Both the position numbers and the translations under genes were made by a program. Positions 41,029 through 48,145 of a stretch of DNA of 60,621 nt are shown here, one piece after another. The stretch covers positions 1-60,621 of the forward strand of contig CAJQRU010000013.1 of the NCBI GenBank assembly GCA_905612355.1. The letters run 5' to 3'. Each line of letters starts with the position of its first letter. The first letter of the stretch is position 1. This DNA comes from an uncultured Gammaproteobacteria bacterium. Lineage in GTDB: Bacteria > Pseudomonadota > Gammaproteobacteria > Arenicellales > UBA868. The notes under the pieces are model-generated. The model made no database searches, was not told the origin of the DNA, and was given only the letters and a program-made list of their open reading frames with translations.

Positions 41029-42774
41029 ATGACCCTTGCTCGCCGAGAATTTCTGCATGTATTAGCGCTGGCCACTGCCGCTGGCATGGGGCTAACGTCC
41101 CGTGCCGCCAACGCAGCCGTTGAGTACGACTTGGCGCCAATGGGTAACCTGTCTTTGTTGCACTTCACCGACAGCCACGCACAGTTGTTGCCAATGCATT
41201 ATCGAGAGCCCAGTTACAACATCGGACTTGGCGAGGCCTTCGGTCGACCCCCGCATATCGTGGGCCGGCACCTGCTTGACTATTTCGGTCTCAGTCCCGC
41301 TACGGCTCAGGCCCATGCCCTGACCAGTCTCGATTTTGAGACGGCCGCCAGTAAGTATGGAAAACTGGGCGGATTCGCTCATCTTGCTACGTTGATCAAA
41401 CGGCTTCGTGCTGAGCGTCCTCACAGTCTGTTACTCGATGGGGGAGACACCTGGCAAGGTTCTGCTACCGCGCTGTGGACTCAGGGCCGCGACATGATCG
41501 AGGCCTGTCGCCTGTTAGGTGTTGACATGATGACGGGGCATTGGGAATTCACCTATGGCATGAATCGGGTGCGGGACATCATTAACAATGAGTTAGCTCC
41601 GATCGAGTTTCTGGCTCAGAACGTGTACCTGACCGAAGACGCTGCCTTCAACGATCGACCGGCTTTTGATGAAGAGACCGGCTTGGTCTTTAAACCCTAC
41701 AGCCTGCGTATGGTCAATACCGTTGCGGTTGCTGTTATCGGGCAGGCTTTTCCGTATACGACGTTGGCGAATCCGCGCTATTTAATTGATGAGTGGAGTT
41801 TTGGCATTCGCGAAGAGCGGGTTCAGGCCAGTGTCGAGGCGGCGCGTGCGGAAGGTGCTGAGGTTGTCGTTTTACTGTCACACAACGGTATGGATGTCGA
41901 TCTTAAGTTAGCAAGTCGTGTCAGTGGTATCGATGTGATTCTCGGTGGCCATACTCATGACGGCGTGCCCGTGCCAAGTATTGTTAACAACAATGGGGGC
42001 CAGACATTGGTCGTCAATTCTGGCTCGAACGGGAAGTTTTTGTCGGTGCTGGATCTGGATGTCCGCGCGGGCCGGGTTCAGGATTACCAATTTCGTTTGT
42101 TACCGGTGTTTGCCAATCTGCTTACACCGGATCCGGAGATGCTGAGTCTGATCGAGGCAGTCCGATTGCCCTACGAGGACCGTTTAAACGAAGTGCTGGC
42201 AACCACAGATACCTTGTTGTACCGACGTGGTAATTTCTCGGGCACCTTTGATCAGATAATCGTTGATGCGCTACGCGACGTGCAGGGTGCCGATATTGCG
42301 CTTTCGCCTGGCTTTCGATGGGGCACGACGCTGTTGCCCGGCGATTCAATCACGATGGAGCAATTGATGAACCAAACTGCCATTACTTATGCTAAATCGA
42401 CGCTTGCTGAGATGACTGGTAGTGACATTCATGCTTTGTTGGAAGACATAGCTGACAACTTGTTCAATCCGGATCCTTACTATCAGATGGGCGGCGATAT
42501 GGTCAGGGTCGGTGGATTGTCGTACACCATCGATCCCAGTGTGCCGATGGGACGGCGCATCAGTGAGTTACAATTTAACAATAAACCGCTGGATCCTAAC
42601 CGACGTTACCGTGTGGCAGGCTGGGCTAGCGTTAGGCCTCAACCTGATGAGTCGCCGGACATTTGGCAGGTGGTGGGCGACTATCTGCGTGACAGAAAAC
42701 ACATTGATCAGGTTGCCGTCAATATGCCCCATGTTAAAGGGGTGGCTAACAATCCGGGATGGATCCGGCAATAA
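41029..42774 (+). CDS. soxB: Thiosulfohydrolase SoxB
   Basis: Periplasmic dimanganese enzyme that hydrolyses the sulfone from SoxY-bound thiosulfonate, releasing sulfate. Tat signal with ARREFLHVLALATAAG. Metallophosphoesterase-type motifs: LHFTDSHAQLLP (44-55), LLLDGGDTWQGS (134-145), GHWEFTYG (170-177), LLSHNGMD and ILGGHTHDGVP. 581 residues. It lies after a terminator, so it has its own promoter, though I cannot fix one. A weak stem AATGGC/GCCATT (40981-41004) is in the leader. Confidence 0.97.
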   Translation: MTLARREFLHVLALATAAGMGLTSRAANAAVEYDLAPMGNLSLLHFTDSHAQLLPMHYREPSYNIGLGEAFGRPPHIVGRHLLDYFGLSPATAQAHALTSLDFETAASKYGKLGGFAHLATLIKRLRAERPHSLLLDGGDTWQGSATALWTQGRDMIEACRLLGVDMMTGHWEFTYGMNRVRDIINNELAPIEFLAQNVYLTEDAAFNDRPAFDEETGLVFKPYSLRMVNTVAVAVIGQAFPYTTLANPRYLIDEWSFGIREERVQASVEAARAEGAEVVVLLSHNGMDVDLKLASRVSGIDVILGGHTHDGVPVPSIVNNNGGQTLVVNSGSNGKFLSVLDLDVRAGRVQDYQFRLLPVFANLLTPDPEMLSLIEAVRLPYEDRLNEVLATTDTLLYRRGNFSGTFDQIIVDALRDVQGADIALSPGFRWGTTLLPGDSITMEQLMNQTAITYAKSTLAEMTGSDIHALLEDIADNLFNPDPYYQMGGDMVRVGGLSYTIDPSVPMGRRISELQFNNKPLDPNRRYRVAGWASVRPQPDESPDIWQVVGDYLRDRKHIDQVAVNMPHVKGVANNPGWIRQ

Positions 42775-42785
42775 GGGTCAGTCAA

Positions 42786-42983
42786 ATGAGCTCAGAGTAC
42801 TACGACACAATAGATCATCTGGAAAAGCAATTGGTTGATGCGGACTATATCCTTGGTTGGGCCGGGGGCTACTTGGACAATCCAGTTCGCGAAGAGCAAC
42901 GGGTGACACAGGCTTATACAGCCGGTTATGCCGATGGCAAGGCGAGACACACCGAGCAGGCGGGGCAGTTCACGATTCAGTAA
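42786..42983 (+). CDS. Small acidic protein of unknown function downstream of soxB
   Basis: A 65-residue acidic protein from ATG 42786 (MSSEYYDTIDHLEKQLVDAD...), 11 bp after soxB. I do not recognise a family. The C-terminal AYTAGYADGKARH resembles the helix of ribosome modulation factor-like proteins, but there is too little to assign. No signal peptide and no cysteine. Its last 14 bases overlap the end of the convergent 197-residue gene. Position suggests cotranscription with soxB. Confidence 0.6.
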   Translation: MSSEYYDTIDHLEKQLVDADYILGWAGGYLDNPVREEQRVTQAYTAGYADGKARHTEQAGQFTIQ

Positions 42984-43563
42984 CACTGTCTCCGAGGGTT
43001 TGTTTGATCTGGGGCCCGAGTAGGTTTTTAAGTATGTCCAAAAACAGCCGAACAGCGTCGGGGCCGTCCACTGTGATGACCTGATCAATGACCCAGCGAT
43101 TGGTTTGGCTTTCTCCCATCACCTGTTGGATATTTGTTCCAAGGCTTTTCAGCAGTCCAAAACGTGGCTCTAACTCGTCGAATGAATATTGAGCGTATTC
43201 GGTAGTGCGCACATTGAGAAGATCGATGAAGAGTTTCCGATGGTTGTCTGACCCCAGAATCTCGCTAGCGTTACGCTGCAGATGGCGGGCACAACTTAAT
43301 GACAGTTCTTGAACAAATGTGTGGCGTTTTTCGGGAGAGAAGTGCTGACTGCACAGGCGATCAGCACAGTGTACGAGTACGAAGAGATACTCACTGATGA
43401 CATCCAGGCGCTGTTGATCACTCGTGTAGTTATAGTTCTCTTCGTGTAGATTCTTAGTCGATGCCAGTGCGATGGCCCAGGCACGGTAGGCGGCGGCACC
43501 GGCGCTGTCGATCAGACTGCCCTGTTCCGGGTTGCGCCAGCGATCAGGAGCGAGACGGGACAT
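42970..43563 (-). CDS. Conserved-looking hypothetical protein, last gene of the minus-strand cassette
   Basis: A 197-residue soluble, largely helical protein. No motif I recognise. It has an N-terminal helical region (AAAYRAWAIALAS, LDVISEYLFVLVHCADRLCSQHFSPEKR), a middle LLNVRTTEYAQYSF and a C-terminal helix VRLFLDILKNLLGPQIKQTL. No signal or membrane segment. It follows the 67-residue gene by 13 bp in the same direction and is convergent with the soxB unit, overlapping it by 14 bp. Codon use looks like the neighbours, so I take it as a real gene. Confidence 0.7.
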   Translation of the reverse strand: MSRLAPDRWRNPEQGSLIDSAGAAAYRAWAIALASTKNLHEENYNYTSDQQRLDVISEYLFVLVHCADRLCSQHFSPEKRHTFVQELSLSCARHLQRNASEILGSDNHRKLFIDLLNVRTTEYAQYSFDELEPRFGLLKSLGTNIQQVMGESQTNRWVIDQVITVDGPDAVRLFLDILKNLLGPQIKQTLGDSVTES

Positions 43564-43576
43564 AGCGGAGCGTTGC

Positions 43577-43780
43577 CTAGCGTTTAGAGTTTTTTTCTTC
43601 GTGGGCTAAATCAATGACTCGCGTCGCGAGCTCATCGTATTCCTTTCGGTAGTCAGTCAGGAGGTGATCGCTGGGTGGAACGAAATAGTCTTTAGGGTCG
43701 AGTCCATCCTTCTGTTCATATGCGATGAACAAATGTTGCAGTTCCAACATGCGTTGGATCAATTTATTTTTTTCACTCAT
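43577..43780 (-). CDS. Small hypothetical protein of the minus-strand cassette
   Basis: A 67-residue charged, helical protein from the ATG whose complement is at 43778-43780 (MSEKNKLIQRMLELQHLFI...). The open frame extends 55 residues further upstream but overlaps the intergenic region and reads as non-protein-like. Middle segment KDYFVPPSDHLLTDYRKEYDELA. Unknown function. It lies 43 bp after the Cas6-like gene and 13 bp before the 197-residue gene, so all are probably on one transcript. Confidence 0.6.
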   Translation of the reverse strand: MSEKNKLIQRMLELQHLFIAYEQKDGLDPKDYFVPPSDHLLTDYRKEYDELATRVIDLAHEEKNSKR

Positions 43781-43823
43781 TGCATGTTTCTCACGGTCAA
43801 ATGAGCAGTTCGCGTATCGCTGT

Positions 43824-44516
43824 TCAATTGTGAATGTCACGCCTGACTGGCGAAATACTTTTGTGATGGTGAAAAATACCACAGCCCATCGCTCGCCCCA
43901 GACCCAAACCGGACGCTTGCAGATCGAGCGACTCGTCATCTTCAAGATCCGCTACCATGAGACTGTGCGCAGTCCATGTCCCTGACGCGGACCGTATCAC
44001 GTGTTCCCGACCACACAGGAGTTTTCTTGGTTGAATACCACGGGTGTGGAAGTGCGCAACGATGGTGTTGGTCAAGCCTGCCTCATCGAGTGGTTCGGGG
44101 GTCATGACAACGTGTCGAGAAAAAAGGGTTGGGCACGGCAATAGATGCTTCGTACGCCCTTTGCCAACTTCCAAGGCGAAATCATCGACGAGCAATTGTT
44201 TGCCGGTCAGTTCGTGACCACTGGCAACACGGTGTAACGGAAGCCTCAATGTCAGACGGGTTCGACGGGACAGTTGGATGACTCCATTCTCAGTGGGTCG
44301 TTGCCAGCCATTACCTGAATCAGGACCATGGTTCAGGTAAATGCCTAGAGAGGGTTCTGAAGGAAGCCAGGTCAAGTGGCCCGCAATGGCGCTCTGCAGG
44401 CTCAGCCTGAAATCTGATTGTAGGTGTTGACCACTGATACTGAAATGCAGATCGATCATGCACTGATCCGGGCCACGCGCTTCGTGCGGTTCGTTTTCCT
44501 GCCAGTGAATATTCAT
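43824..44516 (-). CDS. Cas6/Cmx6-like RAMP-fold protein, stand-alone
   Basis: A 230-residue protein that I relate to the Cas6 type I-MYXAN (Cmx6) family. Supporting segments: MIDLHFSISG as the first beta strand (20-29), SLGIYLNHG (56-64, compare GIHPIRG), RTRLTLRLP (85-93), LTGKQLLVDDFALEVG (103-118), GLTNTIVAHFHTRGI (147-161) and the C-terminal glycine-rich loop GLGLGRAMGCGIFHHHK (203-219), the RAMP hallmark. Cmx6 proteins cut CRISPR repeat RNA. The early Asp-His-Gly-Tyr segment I recall for the family reads SDFR here (34-37), so catalysis is doubtful. No CRISPR repeats or other cas genes are visible. The gene follows the dioxygenase by 22 bp. Confidence 0.7.
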   Translation of the reverse strand: MNIHWQENEPHEARGPDQCMIDLHFSISGQHLQSDFRLSLQSAIAGHLTWLPSEPSLGIYLNHGPDSGNGWQRPTENGVIQLSRRTRLTLRLPLHRVASGHELTGKQLLVDDFALEVGKGRTKHLLPCPTLFSRHVVMTPEPLDEAGLTNTIVAHFHTRGIQPRKLLCGREHVIRSASGTWTAHSLMVADLEDDESLDLQASGLGLGRAMGCGIFHHHKSISPVRRDIHN

Positions 44517-44538
44517 GGGAGTGAGAGTTAGGTGCTGA

Positions 44539-45591
44539 TCATGCGGCCGGCAGCAGTGACGTGGGCAGTGCCGCAACGCTGCCTCTGATGGGGTCTCGGA
44601 AGCGAGCCCGATAGAGGAGCCTTGAGTGCGGCGTTACATCGGTGAAGGCACTGCGTGCGTGAAGTATGTTATGACAGATGATGCCTTCACCGGCTTCCAG
44701 TGTGTGTTCGAGTACCAGATCCGATGCTTGCGTGAGCACCTCACGCAGCTGGTCAAGCGCAGTCCGAACGGGTTCGCTCTTTTGCCATTGAATGTGACGC
44801 TGCCGACTGGTGTAGCGCATGGCCAGGGCTCCGTCCTTCGTGGCAAAGAATACGGGGCCAGCGCAGGCTGCCCGAATCATTGTTCCTTGCTCGGTTCGGT
44901 GGGCAGGAATGGTCATTGCATTGGGATGGGTGAGTGCGGCCACCAGAGAGGGGTCCCGTCGACGCAGTAGACCATATATGACAGTGTGATCAATGAGCAG
45001 GTTACATCCACCGCTATCAGCGCGTCGTTCGCAATGCAGCAAGAATGATCTTATGGCCTGGTCGGTAGGGTAATAATAGCCGTCAGTATGCCAGTTCAGC
45101 GCGGCCGATGAGAATGGGATTGATGGTGTTTCTGTAACGATGCGCTGGTCGGCGAGTTCTGCCAACCCTTGATGGTTGGTGGTCGTGTCCCGGTCCAGAC
45201 GGGTCAGCCCGAGTTGTGCTGCCAACGAAAGAATACTCTCCTGATTGACCTGTTCGGGAGTTCGACACCGGTAAATGACCATATTGGCCTTTGCAATCGC
45301 AGTGATTAGGGCTGTGCGTTCGAACGACGTTAATTTTTGTGGGTTGGTGATTTCAACTAGGGGATTACGCAGTACCTGTCGATAACCGACCAGTTTCTGC
45401 TCAAACCAGGATTCAAAGCGGGAATGGGTCAATAGGTTGTATTCAGAAGGGAATTTGGTAGACAAGGTTCGGATCGAATTTACCGGCGCTACACTCGATG
45501 CGCGCGATACACCGCTTAGAGGGTTGCTTTCCAGCATTGTATAAAAATCGTTTGTGGCGCCCCATTCTCCATAAGAGGAAGGCCTGTTCAC
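44539..45591 (-). CDS. TauD/TfdA-type Fe(II)/2-oxoglutarate dioxygenase
   Basis: A 350-residue protein with the iron facial triad H168 and D170 in ALNWHTDGYYYP and the distal His in ICHNILHARSAF (H311), plus the 2-oxoglutarate Arg in SRLLYRARFRDP. These place it in the TauD/TfdA/gamma-butyrobetaine hydroxylase group. Substrate unknown; taurine-like sulfonates are one option but nothing in the sequence proves it. Start is uncertain: GTG at 45591 lacks a ribosome site, and ATG at 45537 would drop 18 residues. First gene of the - strand cassette, transcribed away from dsrA. Confidence 0.85.
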   Translation of the reverse strand: MNRPSSYGEWGATNDFYTMLESNPLSGVSRASSVAPVNSIRTLSTKFPSEYNLLTHSRFESWFEQKLVGYRQVLRNPLVEITNPQKLTSFERTALITAIAKANMVIYRCRTPEQVNQESILSLAAQLGLTRLDRDTTTNHQGLAELADQRIVTETPSIPFSSAALNWHTDGYYYPTDQAIRSFLLHCERRADSGGCNLLIDHTVIYGLLRRRDPSLVAALTHPNAMTIPAHRTEQGTMIRAACAGPVFFATKDGALAMRYTSRQRHIQWQKSEPVRTALDQLREVLTQASDLVLEHTLEAGEGIICHNILHARSAFTDVTPHSRLLYRARFRDPIRGSVAALPTSLLPAA

Positions 45592-45609: not shown

Positions 45610-45681
45610 CCTATCTCTTTAGGGATAGGTCTAGCTGCGCCATGCTTCCCCAAGGGAGTAATGGCCACCGCCCGGTGGGCC
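45610..45681. promoter_or_regulatory. Two palindromes in the dioxygenase-dsrA divergent region
   Basis: CCTATC-TCTTTAGG-GATAGG (45610-45629) is a nearly perfect 20-bp palindrome. GGCCACC-GCCC-GGTGG-G-CC (45663-45681) is a hairpin with one bulge. TAAAAT (45684-45689) right after the second could be a dsrA -10 box, without a good -35. Both lie between divergent transcription units, so they may be operators controlling one or both. Confidence 0.5.
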
Positions 45682-45758
45682 TCTAAAATGGCGAGTTAAT
45701 CAGGCTGATCACGCTTCGGCGTAACACCCCGTCAAACTTGTCACGGAGAACACTGGCT

Positions 45759-47027
45759 ATGTCGGATGAGAAAAAGCATGCCACACCCATGTTGGATGAA
45801 CTGGAGAAGGGTCCGTGGCCGAGTTTCGTTTCGGGAATAAAGAACCTTCGTGATGGGCACCCAAGCGGGCGGGTTAACGGCATGGCCAATGACCTACTCG
45901 GCCAGCTCGAACACTCGTATGAAACCCGCAAGGGATACTGGAAGGGTGGTACCGTCAGCGTCTACGGTTATGGCGGCGGCATCATCCCAAGGTTTTCTGA
46001 GGTCGGCCAGCAGTTTCCCGAGTCTAAAGAGTTTCATACGCTGCGAGTGCAGCCTCCTGCGGGACACCATTATTCAACGGATATTTTGCGACAACTCGCC
46101 GACAGTTGGGAGAAGTGGGGATCAGGGTTAGTCACGTTTCATGGCCAGACCGGGAATATTATGTTTATCGGCGCCACTACTGAAAACACCCAAAAGTTTT
46201 TTGATGAGATCAATGATTACGGTTTTGATCTCGGCGGCGCGGGGCCGTGTGTGCGGACCTCACAGTCCTGTGTCGGTTCGGCGCGCTGTGAGCAGTCGTG
46301 CGCAAACGAGCACAAGATTCACCGCATGCTGGTGAACAATTTCACTGATGATGTGCATCGACCCGCTCTGCCGTACAAGTTTAAATTCAAGATATCCGGC
46401 TGCCCGAACGATTGTATGAATGCCATCGAGCGATCCGATTTTGCGGTGATTGGGACCTGGCGTGACGAGATTGTTATCGAACAGGACCAATGGAAAAAAT
46501 ATGTGGATAAGAAGGGTCGCCAGCATGTGATCGACAACATTATCACCCGCTGTCCCACCAAGTGCATGAGTCTCAAGAACGATGACACTCTGGACATTGA
46601 TGACCGCAATTGCGTCAAGTGCATGCACTGCCTCAACGTAGTGCCTTCCGCCTTGTCTCCTGGCGAGGATCGCGGTGTTTCAGTGCTCATCGGTGGCAAA
46701 CGCACTCTGAAGATTGGTGATCTCATGGGGACGGTGATTGTGCCTTTTATGAAGTTGGATACCGAGGCCGACTATGAGCGATTGGTTGAACTTGCTGAAA
46801 GTTCGATTGATTTCTGGGCTGAAAATGGCTTGGAACATGAGCGCTGTGGCGAGATGATCGAGCGAATTGGTCTGGTGAATTTCCTCGATGGCATTGGCGT
46901 TGAAGTGGATCCGAACATGATTGATCACCCACGGGAATCCTCCTATGTCCGAATGGATGGATGGGACGAAGAGGCAATCAAGTGGTTCGAACAAAAACGC
47001 GACCAATCGTTGGCAGCGGCAGGCTGA
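45759..47027 (+). CDS. dsrA: Reverse dissimilatory sulfite reductase alpha subunit
   Basis: Cytoplasmic siroheme enzyme subunit that oxidises DsrC-bound sulfur to sulfite. Cys motifs for the siroheme-coupled cluster: CVRTSQSCVGSARCEQSC, then SGCPNDCMNAI and CPTKCMSL; the ferredoxin insert has CVKCMHCLNV. 422 residues from ATG 45759 with GGAG upstream. First gene of the dsr operon; DsrB follows. Combined with dsrEFH and dsrL it is the oxidative form. Confidence 0.97.
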   Translation: MSDEKKHATPMLDELEKGPWPSFVSGIKNLRDGHPSGRVNGMANDLLGQLEHSYETRKGYWKGGTVSVYGYGGGIIPRFSEVGQQFPESKEFHTLRVQPPAGHHYSTDILRQLADSWEKWGSGLVTFHGQTGNIMFIGATTENTQKFFDEINDYGFDLGGAGPCVRTSQSCVGSARCEQSCANEHKIHRMLVNNFTDDVHRPALPYKFKFKISGCPNDCMNAIERSDFAVIGTWRDEIVIEQDQWKKYVDKKGRQHVIDNIITRCPTKCMSLKNDDTLDIDDRNCVKCMHCLNVVPSALSPGEDRGVSVLIGGKRTLKIGDLMGTVIVPFMKLDTEADYERLVELAESSIDFWAENGLEHERCGEMIERIGLVNFLDGIGVEVDPNMIDHPRESSYVRMDGWDEEAIKWFEQKRDQSLAAAG

Positions 47028-47068
47028 TTGTTTGGCAACAACACAACTGATTAGCGGAGCAGTGACCA

Positions 47069-48145
47069 ATGGCTAAACGGGAAATGCGTAAAGCGATAGA
47101 AACCGGTTGTCCCGATGGGTTTCAATATATGCATCCATTGATGGTCAAGAATTTTGGCCAGTGGAAAACACATGATCATCCTCGCCCCGGGGTGTTACGC
47201 CATATTGCCAAGAGTGGTGATGCCATCTGGACGGTGCGCGCCGGAACACAACGAATTCTCGATGTTTTTACGCTGCGTCAGTTGTGCGACATTGGGGACC
47301 GCTATGCAGATGGGCGTGTGCGTTTCACGATTCGGAGCAACATTGAATACATGTTGGCGGATGAAGAAAAAGTGGCCCCGTTGATCAAGGCACTAGAAGC
47401 CGCAGGTTTCGTCGTTGGGGGCACGGGCAATTCTGTTGCCATGATTTCTCACACGCAAGGCTGGTTGCATTGCGATATTCCAGGGACGGATGCATCGGGT
47501 GTGGTCAAGGCGATGATGGATGAGCTCATCGATGAGTTTAAGAGCTGTAATATGCCCAATCGTGTTCACATCACGACTTCATGTTGCCAGATTAACTGCG
47601 GTGGGCAGGGCGATATTGCGATTAATGTGCAGCACACTAAGCCGCCAAGAATTAACCATGATCTTGTTGCCAATATGTGCGAGCGGCCGTCGGTGGTTGC
47701 GCGCTGTCCGGTGGCTGCTATACGGCCCGCCCAGGTGAATGGCAAGCCGACCCTCGAAGTCGATGAGAAAAAGTGTATTTGTTGCGGCGCGTGCTATCCA
47801 CCATGTCCGCCAATGCAGATCAATGATCCGGAACACACCAAACTCGCGATCTGGGTTGGTGGTAATCATTCCAATGCCCGTAGCAAGCCCAGTTTCCAGA
47901 AACTAGTGGCTTCGGGTATTCCAAATAATCCTCCTCGCTGGCCCGAAGCCACTGCGATTGTTAAACGGATTCTCCGTTGTTACAAGGAGGATGGGCGAGA
48001 TTGGGAACGAGTCAACGACTGGATTGACCGGATCGGTTGGCCACGGTTTTTCGAATTAACTGGATTGCCATTTACCAAATACCACATCGACAATTGGCGT
48101 GGCGCACGTAAGAGTCTCAACGCGTCAACTTACGTTCGAATCTAA
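47069..48145 (+). CDS. dsrB: Reverse dissimilatory sulfite reductase beta subunit
   Basis: Catalytic partner of DsrA, 358 residues. Siroheme/cluster motif TTSCCQINCGGQGDIAI and CERPSVVARCPVAAIRP, and ferredoxin-like domain CICCGACYPPCPPMQI. HTQGWLHCDIPGTDASG is a family block. 41 bp after dsrA with GCGGAGCAG upstream of the ATG. Confidence 0.97.
   Translation: MAKREMRKAIETGCPDGFQYMHPLMVKNFGQWKTHDHPRPGVLRHIAKSGDAIWTVRAGTQRILDVFTLRQLCDIGDRYADGRVRFTIRSNIEYMLADEEKVAPLIKALEAAGFVVGGTGNSVAMISHTQGWLHCDIPGTDASGVVKAMMDELIDEFKSCNMPNRVHITTSCCQINCGGQGDIAINVQHTKPPRINHDLVANMCERPSVVARCPVAAIRPAQVNGKPTLEVDEKKCICCGACYPPCPPMQINDPEHTKLAIWVGGNHSNARSKPSFQKLVASGIPNNPPRWPEATAIVKRILRCYKEDGRDWERVNDWIDRIGWPRFFELTGLPFTKYHIDNWRGARKSLNASTYVRI

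Follow-up and report, generated by a model that had tools for sequence, protein, structure and literature searches.

In the sea and in sediments, the sulfur cycle is driven to a large extent by Dsr-based sulfur oxidation, which also sustains many animal symbioses; the protein set of this pathway is usually regarded as known. Accessory genes that follow the pathway include dsrR, dsrS and dsrT, and DsrR takes part in the regulation of sulfur oxidation (PMC11406059, which mentions neither Cas6 nor TauD). Here, we describe a locus that likewise consists of accessory genes following the Dsr pathway, although these belong to other protein families and are transcribed away from dsrA. One of its members shares family and RAMP fold with the Cas6/Cmx6 proteins of type I-MYXAN and type I-B CAST systems (TIGR02807, PF09559; PDB 8fcj, 8fcu) but, unlike these CRISPR proteins, it is linked to dsr, comes without cas genes or a nearby array, and falls into a separate clade. 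Another member has the fold family and the iron and 2-oxoglutarate (2OG) residues of the TauD/TfdA dioxygenases (PF02668). The open-licence literature, which takes in few subscription journals, yielded no earlier description that joins Cas6 to dsr, TauD or DsrC, and searching it for Cmx6 or Sfum_1244 gave none either.

Our analysis shows that the order of these genes is conserved, that their context is not that of CRISPR, that the Cas6 fold is present and that the locus is dedicated to Dsr. We favour a reading of the cassette as a Dsr-dedicated module of accessory genes centred on a domesticated Cas6 that would bind non-CRISPR RNA, and we give this reading an even chance.

Gene content of the cassette

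The window, that is, the whole stretch of 60,621 nucleotides analysed here, comes from an uncultured gammaproteobacterium (Arenicellales, UBA868). The first-pass annotation had described four minus-strand genes, separated by gaps of 22, 43 and 13 bp and pointing away from dsrA; all four reading frames are open and these coordinates and gaps are exact. Starting from the dsrA side, the cassette encodes a TauD/TfdA-type Fe(II)/2OG dioxygenase (44539–45591, 350 aa), a Cas6-like RAMP protein of the Dsr-linked clade (43824–44516, 230 aa), a 67-aa protein of a conserved family (43577–43780) and a 197-aa all-helical protein (42970–43563). On one side, it is transcribed divergently from dsrA and dsrB (45738–48145, plus strand, identified by search and synteny), dsrA starting at 45738. 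On the other, the 197-aa gene is convergent with, and overlaps by 14 bp, a plus-strand gene for a 74-aa globule sulfur oxidation protein of the Alvin_2107 family (42759–42983; NF049856, E 1.1e-25), beyond which lie soxB and soxA. Neighbourhood comparison indicates that the Alvin_2107-family gene is the module border in many relatives.

The dioxygenase matches PF02668 (E 7.3e-18), and H168-x-D170, H311 and R324, which correspond to the iron site and the 2OG arginine, are near invariant among its relatives. In a Pfam/NCBIfam-type profile search, none of the named-enzyme models that could assign a substrate reached its cutoff, the protein falling far below those for TmpA, trimethyllysine dioxygenase and gamma-butyrobetaine dioxygenase; the PDB held no match at E 0.001. 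The start codon of this gene is uncertain: an ATG near 45537 is possible, and the N-terminal match in a congeneric genome (L022) lies in another frame. The 67-aa and 197-aa proteins match no family in Pfam, NCBIfam or PADLOC. For the 197-aa protein, the structure model is a six-helix bundle (pLDDT 90.3), with no match in a fold search against the PDB.

Purifying selection acts on all four genes in this genus. In comparisons of four congeneric genomes, their Ka/Ks values were 0.11–0.36 where computable (Ks was 0 in one comparison of the 67-aa gene), against about 0.1 for soxB and 0.02–0.07 for dsrA and dsrB.

A larger module in related genomes

Comparison with 34 loci of related genomes and with 80 loci of named Gammaproteobacteria (Thioalkalivibrio, Thiohalobacter, Thiogranum, Beggiatoa relatives and many MAGs) reveals that the cassette of the window is the shortened version of an accessory module that has more genes in other Gammaproteobacteria. 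In relatives, the order towards dsrA is Alvin_2107-like, 197-aa, (DUF6866/Sfum_1244 and a PKHD hydroxylase, on the opposite strand), 67-aa, TusE/DsrC-like, Cas6-like, (235-aa), 60–70-aa and TauD, followed by the divergent dsrA. The 60–70-aa protein was present at 76 of the 80 loci, the TusE/DsrC-like protein at 72, TauD at 68, the 67-aa protein at 53 and the 197-aa protein at 39, with dsrA within the stretch at 60; each module includes one or two Fe/2OG oxygenases. The 60–70-aa gene is absent from the cassette of the window, and neither the TusE-like protein with its RKGGY tail nor the 235-aa protein was found when looked for in its genus.

The scatter of unlinked homologues in other genomes, which the first-pass annotation had named as its counter-evidence, is not what we observed. 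At all 90 distinct loci whose stretch includes both genes, the Cas6-like gene and dsrA are divergent, lying a median of 1.7 kb apart, and the presence of the Cas6-like gene tracks dsrA. Among all 113 distinct Cas6-like loci, every TauD (97/97), 67-aa (83/83) and 197-aa gene (67/67) is on the strand of the Cas6-like gene. The idea that the cassette forms one functional unit thus holds insofar as its genes are conserved, co-oriented and tied to Dsr, but its four genes, which may share one transcript, represent only part of a longer set.

The TusE/DsrC-like partner, which belongs to the modules of relatives and is lacking in the window cassette, matches TIGR03342 (E 4.2e-29) and PF04358 (E 5.8e-33); its tail reads RKGGY, free of cysteine, where DsrC has the cysteine-bearing LPKPTGCV. 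For DsrC relatives that lack cysteines, a regulatory role has been suggested. The occurrence of such a partner, together with a TauD-type oxygenase adjoining an RNA-binding fold, could also suggest RNA modification, the Cas6-like protein handing RNA, such as a tRNA, to the dioxygenase and sulfur being relayed via the TusE-like protein. However, this protein has no cysteines for carrying sulfur, some modules have no TauD, and general tRNA modification would not depend strictly on dsr, so that we consider this explanation unlikely.

Association with the Dsr pathway

Among 61 relatives, the Cas6-like gene is present in 43 of the 45 genomes with a true dsrA and in none of the 16 without. In the two exceptions (G007 and G014), dsrA is truncated by the contig end, at base 3 or 5, so that the position of the cassette is off the assembly. 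The same pattern emerges from a class-wide sample of 275 Gammaproteobacteria, in which 93 genomes have PF09559, 93 have dsrA, 89 have both and 178 have neither (Fisher p about 1e-61, a value that ignores shared ancestry); in all four PF09559-only genomes, the contig ends just past TauD, at the expected place of dsrA. In this sample, the Cas6-like gene is single-copy in every carrier genome. A phylum-wide sample of 348 genomes added four further members of the class with PF09559, which are exactly the four with dsrA, whereas PF09559 was found in 0 of the 32 dsrA-bearing genomes from other classes of Pseudomonadota.

The 197-aa protein behaves similarly. In the class sample, it occurs in 91 of the 97 genomes with dsr and in 1 of the 178 others, this lone carrier (G311) being a fragmented genome whose genus has a dsr-bearing member. 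Outside the class sample, it was present in 4/4 gammaproteobacterial dsr genomes and in 0/32 dsr genomes of other classes. The presence of the Cas6-like and 197-aa genes therefore follows dsrA near-perfectly across the sampled Gammaproteobacteria. The first-pass annotation had placed the cassette between sox and dsr and suggested that it might regulate the flanking sulfur genes; the association is with dsr, adjacency to sox being found mainly in the window's own family.

Vertical inheritance of a single genomic block accounts for much of this signal, which the Fisher test does not correct for, and the genes might then be passengers hitch-hiking beside dsrA without any role in the pathway. Nevertheless, they persist in dsr genomes where the linkage has been broken, as in G159 (Cas6-like gene, 529 kb; dsrA, 487 kb; 197-aa gene, 63 kb) and in Beggiatoa relatives, whose module genes are kept although unlinked from dsrA. 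Moreover, their Ka/Ks values are well below 1 and the Cas6-like gene is retained in genomes of 1.0–1.1 Mb. All these observations make a passenger status very unlikely. Two proteins that track the Dsr pathway almost as tightly as dsrA itself, even in genomes of 1 Mb, are strong candidates for missing parts of this pathway.

A Cas6 family member outside CRISPR

The first-pass annotation had recognized a Cas6-like RAMP fold, and both fold and family assignment were borne out. The protein matches the Pfam Cas6 family PF09559 (E 4.7e-47, 160.9 bits), exceeds the cutoff of TIGR02807 (cas6_cmx6; 106.7 bits against 98.85) and is matched by PADLOC Cas6 models. The closest PDB match of its AlphaFold model (pLDDT 84.9) is 8fcu_B, the Cas6 of a type I-B CAST Cascade (TM 0.72/0.77).

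Taken alone, these matches would fit a solo or trans-acting CRISPR Cas6, maturing crRNAs of arrays located elsewhere in the genome. Against this, cas1 was found in 0 of the 33 genomes searched in the window's family (the genome of the window itself being 62% complete), and among the 61 relatives it shows no association with the Cas6-like gene (4/43 with the gene against 3/18 without). No direct repeats of at least 22 bp were detected within 5 kb in the window, and no cas genes lie near the Cas6-like gene in the window or in the neighbourhoods of relatives. Copies of the gene that have moved away from dsr have diverse neighbours, none of them cas genes, whereas the Cmx6 genes of cyanobacterial plasmids are mostly next to cas3. 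A maximum-likelihood tree separates 89 Dsr-linked from 8 CRISPR Cas6 sequences with support of 100/99, although some branches are long and the CRISPR set is entirely cyanobacterial or CAST. We thus discarded the solo CRISPR reading, which we regard as extremely improbable given the absence of cas1 from the family genomes searched, the non-cas neighbours, the separate clade, the lack of repeats in the window and the co-occurrence with dsrA; the first-pass annotation, too, had seen no known CRISPR module in the cassette. The outlying gammaproteobacterial sequences L190–L193 were likewise considered as CRISPR Cas6 proteins and rejected, being dsr-linked too. Database labels are misleading here, since PADLOC, Pfam and NCBIfam models all give the name Cas6 to a non-CRISPR gene, and counts of cas6 by name overstate the presence of CRISPR in Dsr gammaproteobacteria.

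As a lone, single-copy gene present in nearly all sampled Dsr gammaproteobacteria, the Cas6-like gene probably came from CRISPR and was put to use in sulfur oxidation. Comparison of the two clades indicates which residues were kept. D35, H36 (in most relatives), R91 and the motif G203-x-G205…G211-C-G213 are common to CRISPR Cas6 and the Dsr clade; the four glycines, which form the C-terminal Gly-rich loop, are invariant in the Dsr-linked family. Only the Dsr clade has H60, H63, the insertion S67.N69-G70-W71..P74, R85, E145 and R184. Judging from its position, H36, which is present in 7 of the 8 CRISPR sequences, would be the catalytic histidine. In all four genomes of the window's genus, H36 is replaced by F and H60 by Y, while H63 and the S.NGW..P motif are kept. 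If H36 is catalytic, the Cas6-like protein of this genus would be a binding-only protein, a reading that is not certain, since a Cas6 whose active site is atypical has been reported (PMC3652601). The loss of both histidines suggests that cleavage is not always needed.

These features could also be accommodated by a Dsr-dedicated module working at the protein level, in which the Cas6 fold would serve as a scaffold only. The dioxygenase or dioxygenases, the helical 197-aa protein and, in relatives, the DsrC-like protein without cysteines would then be responsible for maturing, modifying or gating Dsr proteins, or for sensing oxygen. The insertion H..H...S.NGW..P peculiar to the Dsr clade is in line with such a role, as are the RKGGY-tailed DsrC-family partner matched at 72/80 loci, the one or two oxygenases of each module and the conservation of the Cas6-like gene in a genus that has lost its histidines. 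On the other hand, the family has an invariant Gly-rich loop and invariant arginines of the kind seen in RNA-binding Cas6 proteins, and the DsrC-like partner is absent in the window's genus; we view a protein-level role as possible, though on balance doubtful.

The scenario that we prefer is based on RNA. A type I CRISPR Cas6 would have been captured by a Dsr-bearing ancestor, with its Gly-rich loop and RNA-binding RAMP fold left intact, and would now bind cellular RNA, whether a small RNA or a transcript related to dsr. With the dioxygenase and the small proteins as partners, it could tune the Dsr system post-transcriptionally. In most lineages, the protein may still cut RNA; in the window's genus, with H36 and H60 lost, RNA binding only seems more likely. 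The fullest version of this scenario, with a Cas6 domesticated once in an ancestral Dsr gammaproteobacterium and since then acting as a near-universal, dedicated RNA-binding and, in most lineages, perhaps RNA-cutting regulator of sulfur oxidation, is one that we propose tentatively, its chances being somewhat short of even. A role on RNA, if true, would clearly exemplify how a CRISPR ribonuclease can be turned to housekeeping metabolism. Domestication, if true, would mean that a CRISPR protein has become a permanent part of core energy metabolism, masked by the automatic name ‘CRISPR-associated’.

The region between the cassette and dsrA

No RNA target was detected, which counts against the RNA scenario. 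An Rfam scan of positions 38–50.5 kb returned a single match, below threshold and at chance level, and no conserved RNA structure was found in the dsr intergenic regions with a sequence-only alignment, which is a weak test. Promoter and terminator scans gave counts near chance.

The sequence between the cassette and dsrA does contain a palindrome, CCTATCTCTTTAGGGATAGG (45610–45629), which is a probable DNA operator. Its consensus, TATCYC-N4-GRGATA, occurs 105–270 bp before dsrA in 62 of the 99 distinct upstream regions of this gene, shuffled sequences giving 0.44. The length of the spacer is fixed, and the variable bases of the two half-sites combine as expected if they were independent (C-G 24, T-G 11, C-A 9 and T-A 3 observed; about 24.6, 10.4, 8.4 and 3.6 expected). 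A fixed spacer with independent half-sites fits a dimeric DNA-binding regulator rather than an RNA hairpin; a hairpin bound by the Cas6-like protein, which we also considered, is the less likely reading. Since the palindrome lies between divergent promoters, co-regulation of the cassette and the dsr cluster is likely, and a dimeric regulator bound there would probably act in both directions. The copy at 45610–45629 is the sole occurrence of this palindrome in the window.

The dsrA upstream region

A palindrome of the form TATCYC-N4-GRGATA is found at 45610-45629, and the dsrA upstream regions of 62 of the 99 loci have one. The spacing is constant and the half-sites are independent of each other. 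This palindrome is a candidate operator for some dsr regulator in Gammaproteobacteria. Apart from it, the intergenic region between dsrA and the dioxygenase gene TauD contains additional conserved blocks, AACTCTCCCAAAAGG, TTTTGTGCACTGCAAAA and CTCCCGGGGAATGG, in loci L029, L042, L043, L045, L046, L051, L053 and L054 (alignment A6). At another locus, L024, the dsrC-dsrM intergenic region carries a strong GC-rich hairpin 3' of dsrC, GGGGTGCGGGGAATACCTCCCCG, which resembles a terminator or attenuator.

The Cas6-like protein and its neighbours

The Dsr-linked protein (43824..44516, - strand) is labelled 'CRISPR Cas6' by NCBIfam TIGR02807, Pfam PF09559 and the PADLOC Cas6 models. All PF09559 matches examined in sampled Pseudomonadota genomes were either dsr-linked or located within a dsr genome. 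The most frequent partner of the Cas6-like gene encodes a DsrC/TusE-family protein, in which a conserved RKGGY tail stands in for the C-terminal cysteines (L027:8554-8892 and about 70 other loci). Inside the longer module of relatives, a gene for a DUF6866 / Sfum_1244-family protein, a family named after a Syntrophobacter gene, lies on the strand opposite to the module (L027:7129-8265, L024:4365-5408). In a 1.4 Mb genome (locus L166), the Cas6-like gene (~8.6-9.2 kb, Cas6-strand reading) stands apart from dsrA and adjoins RNase III-like and era-like genes, both divergent from it; this proximity is possibly due to chance.
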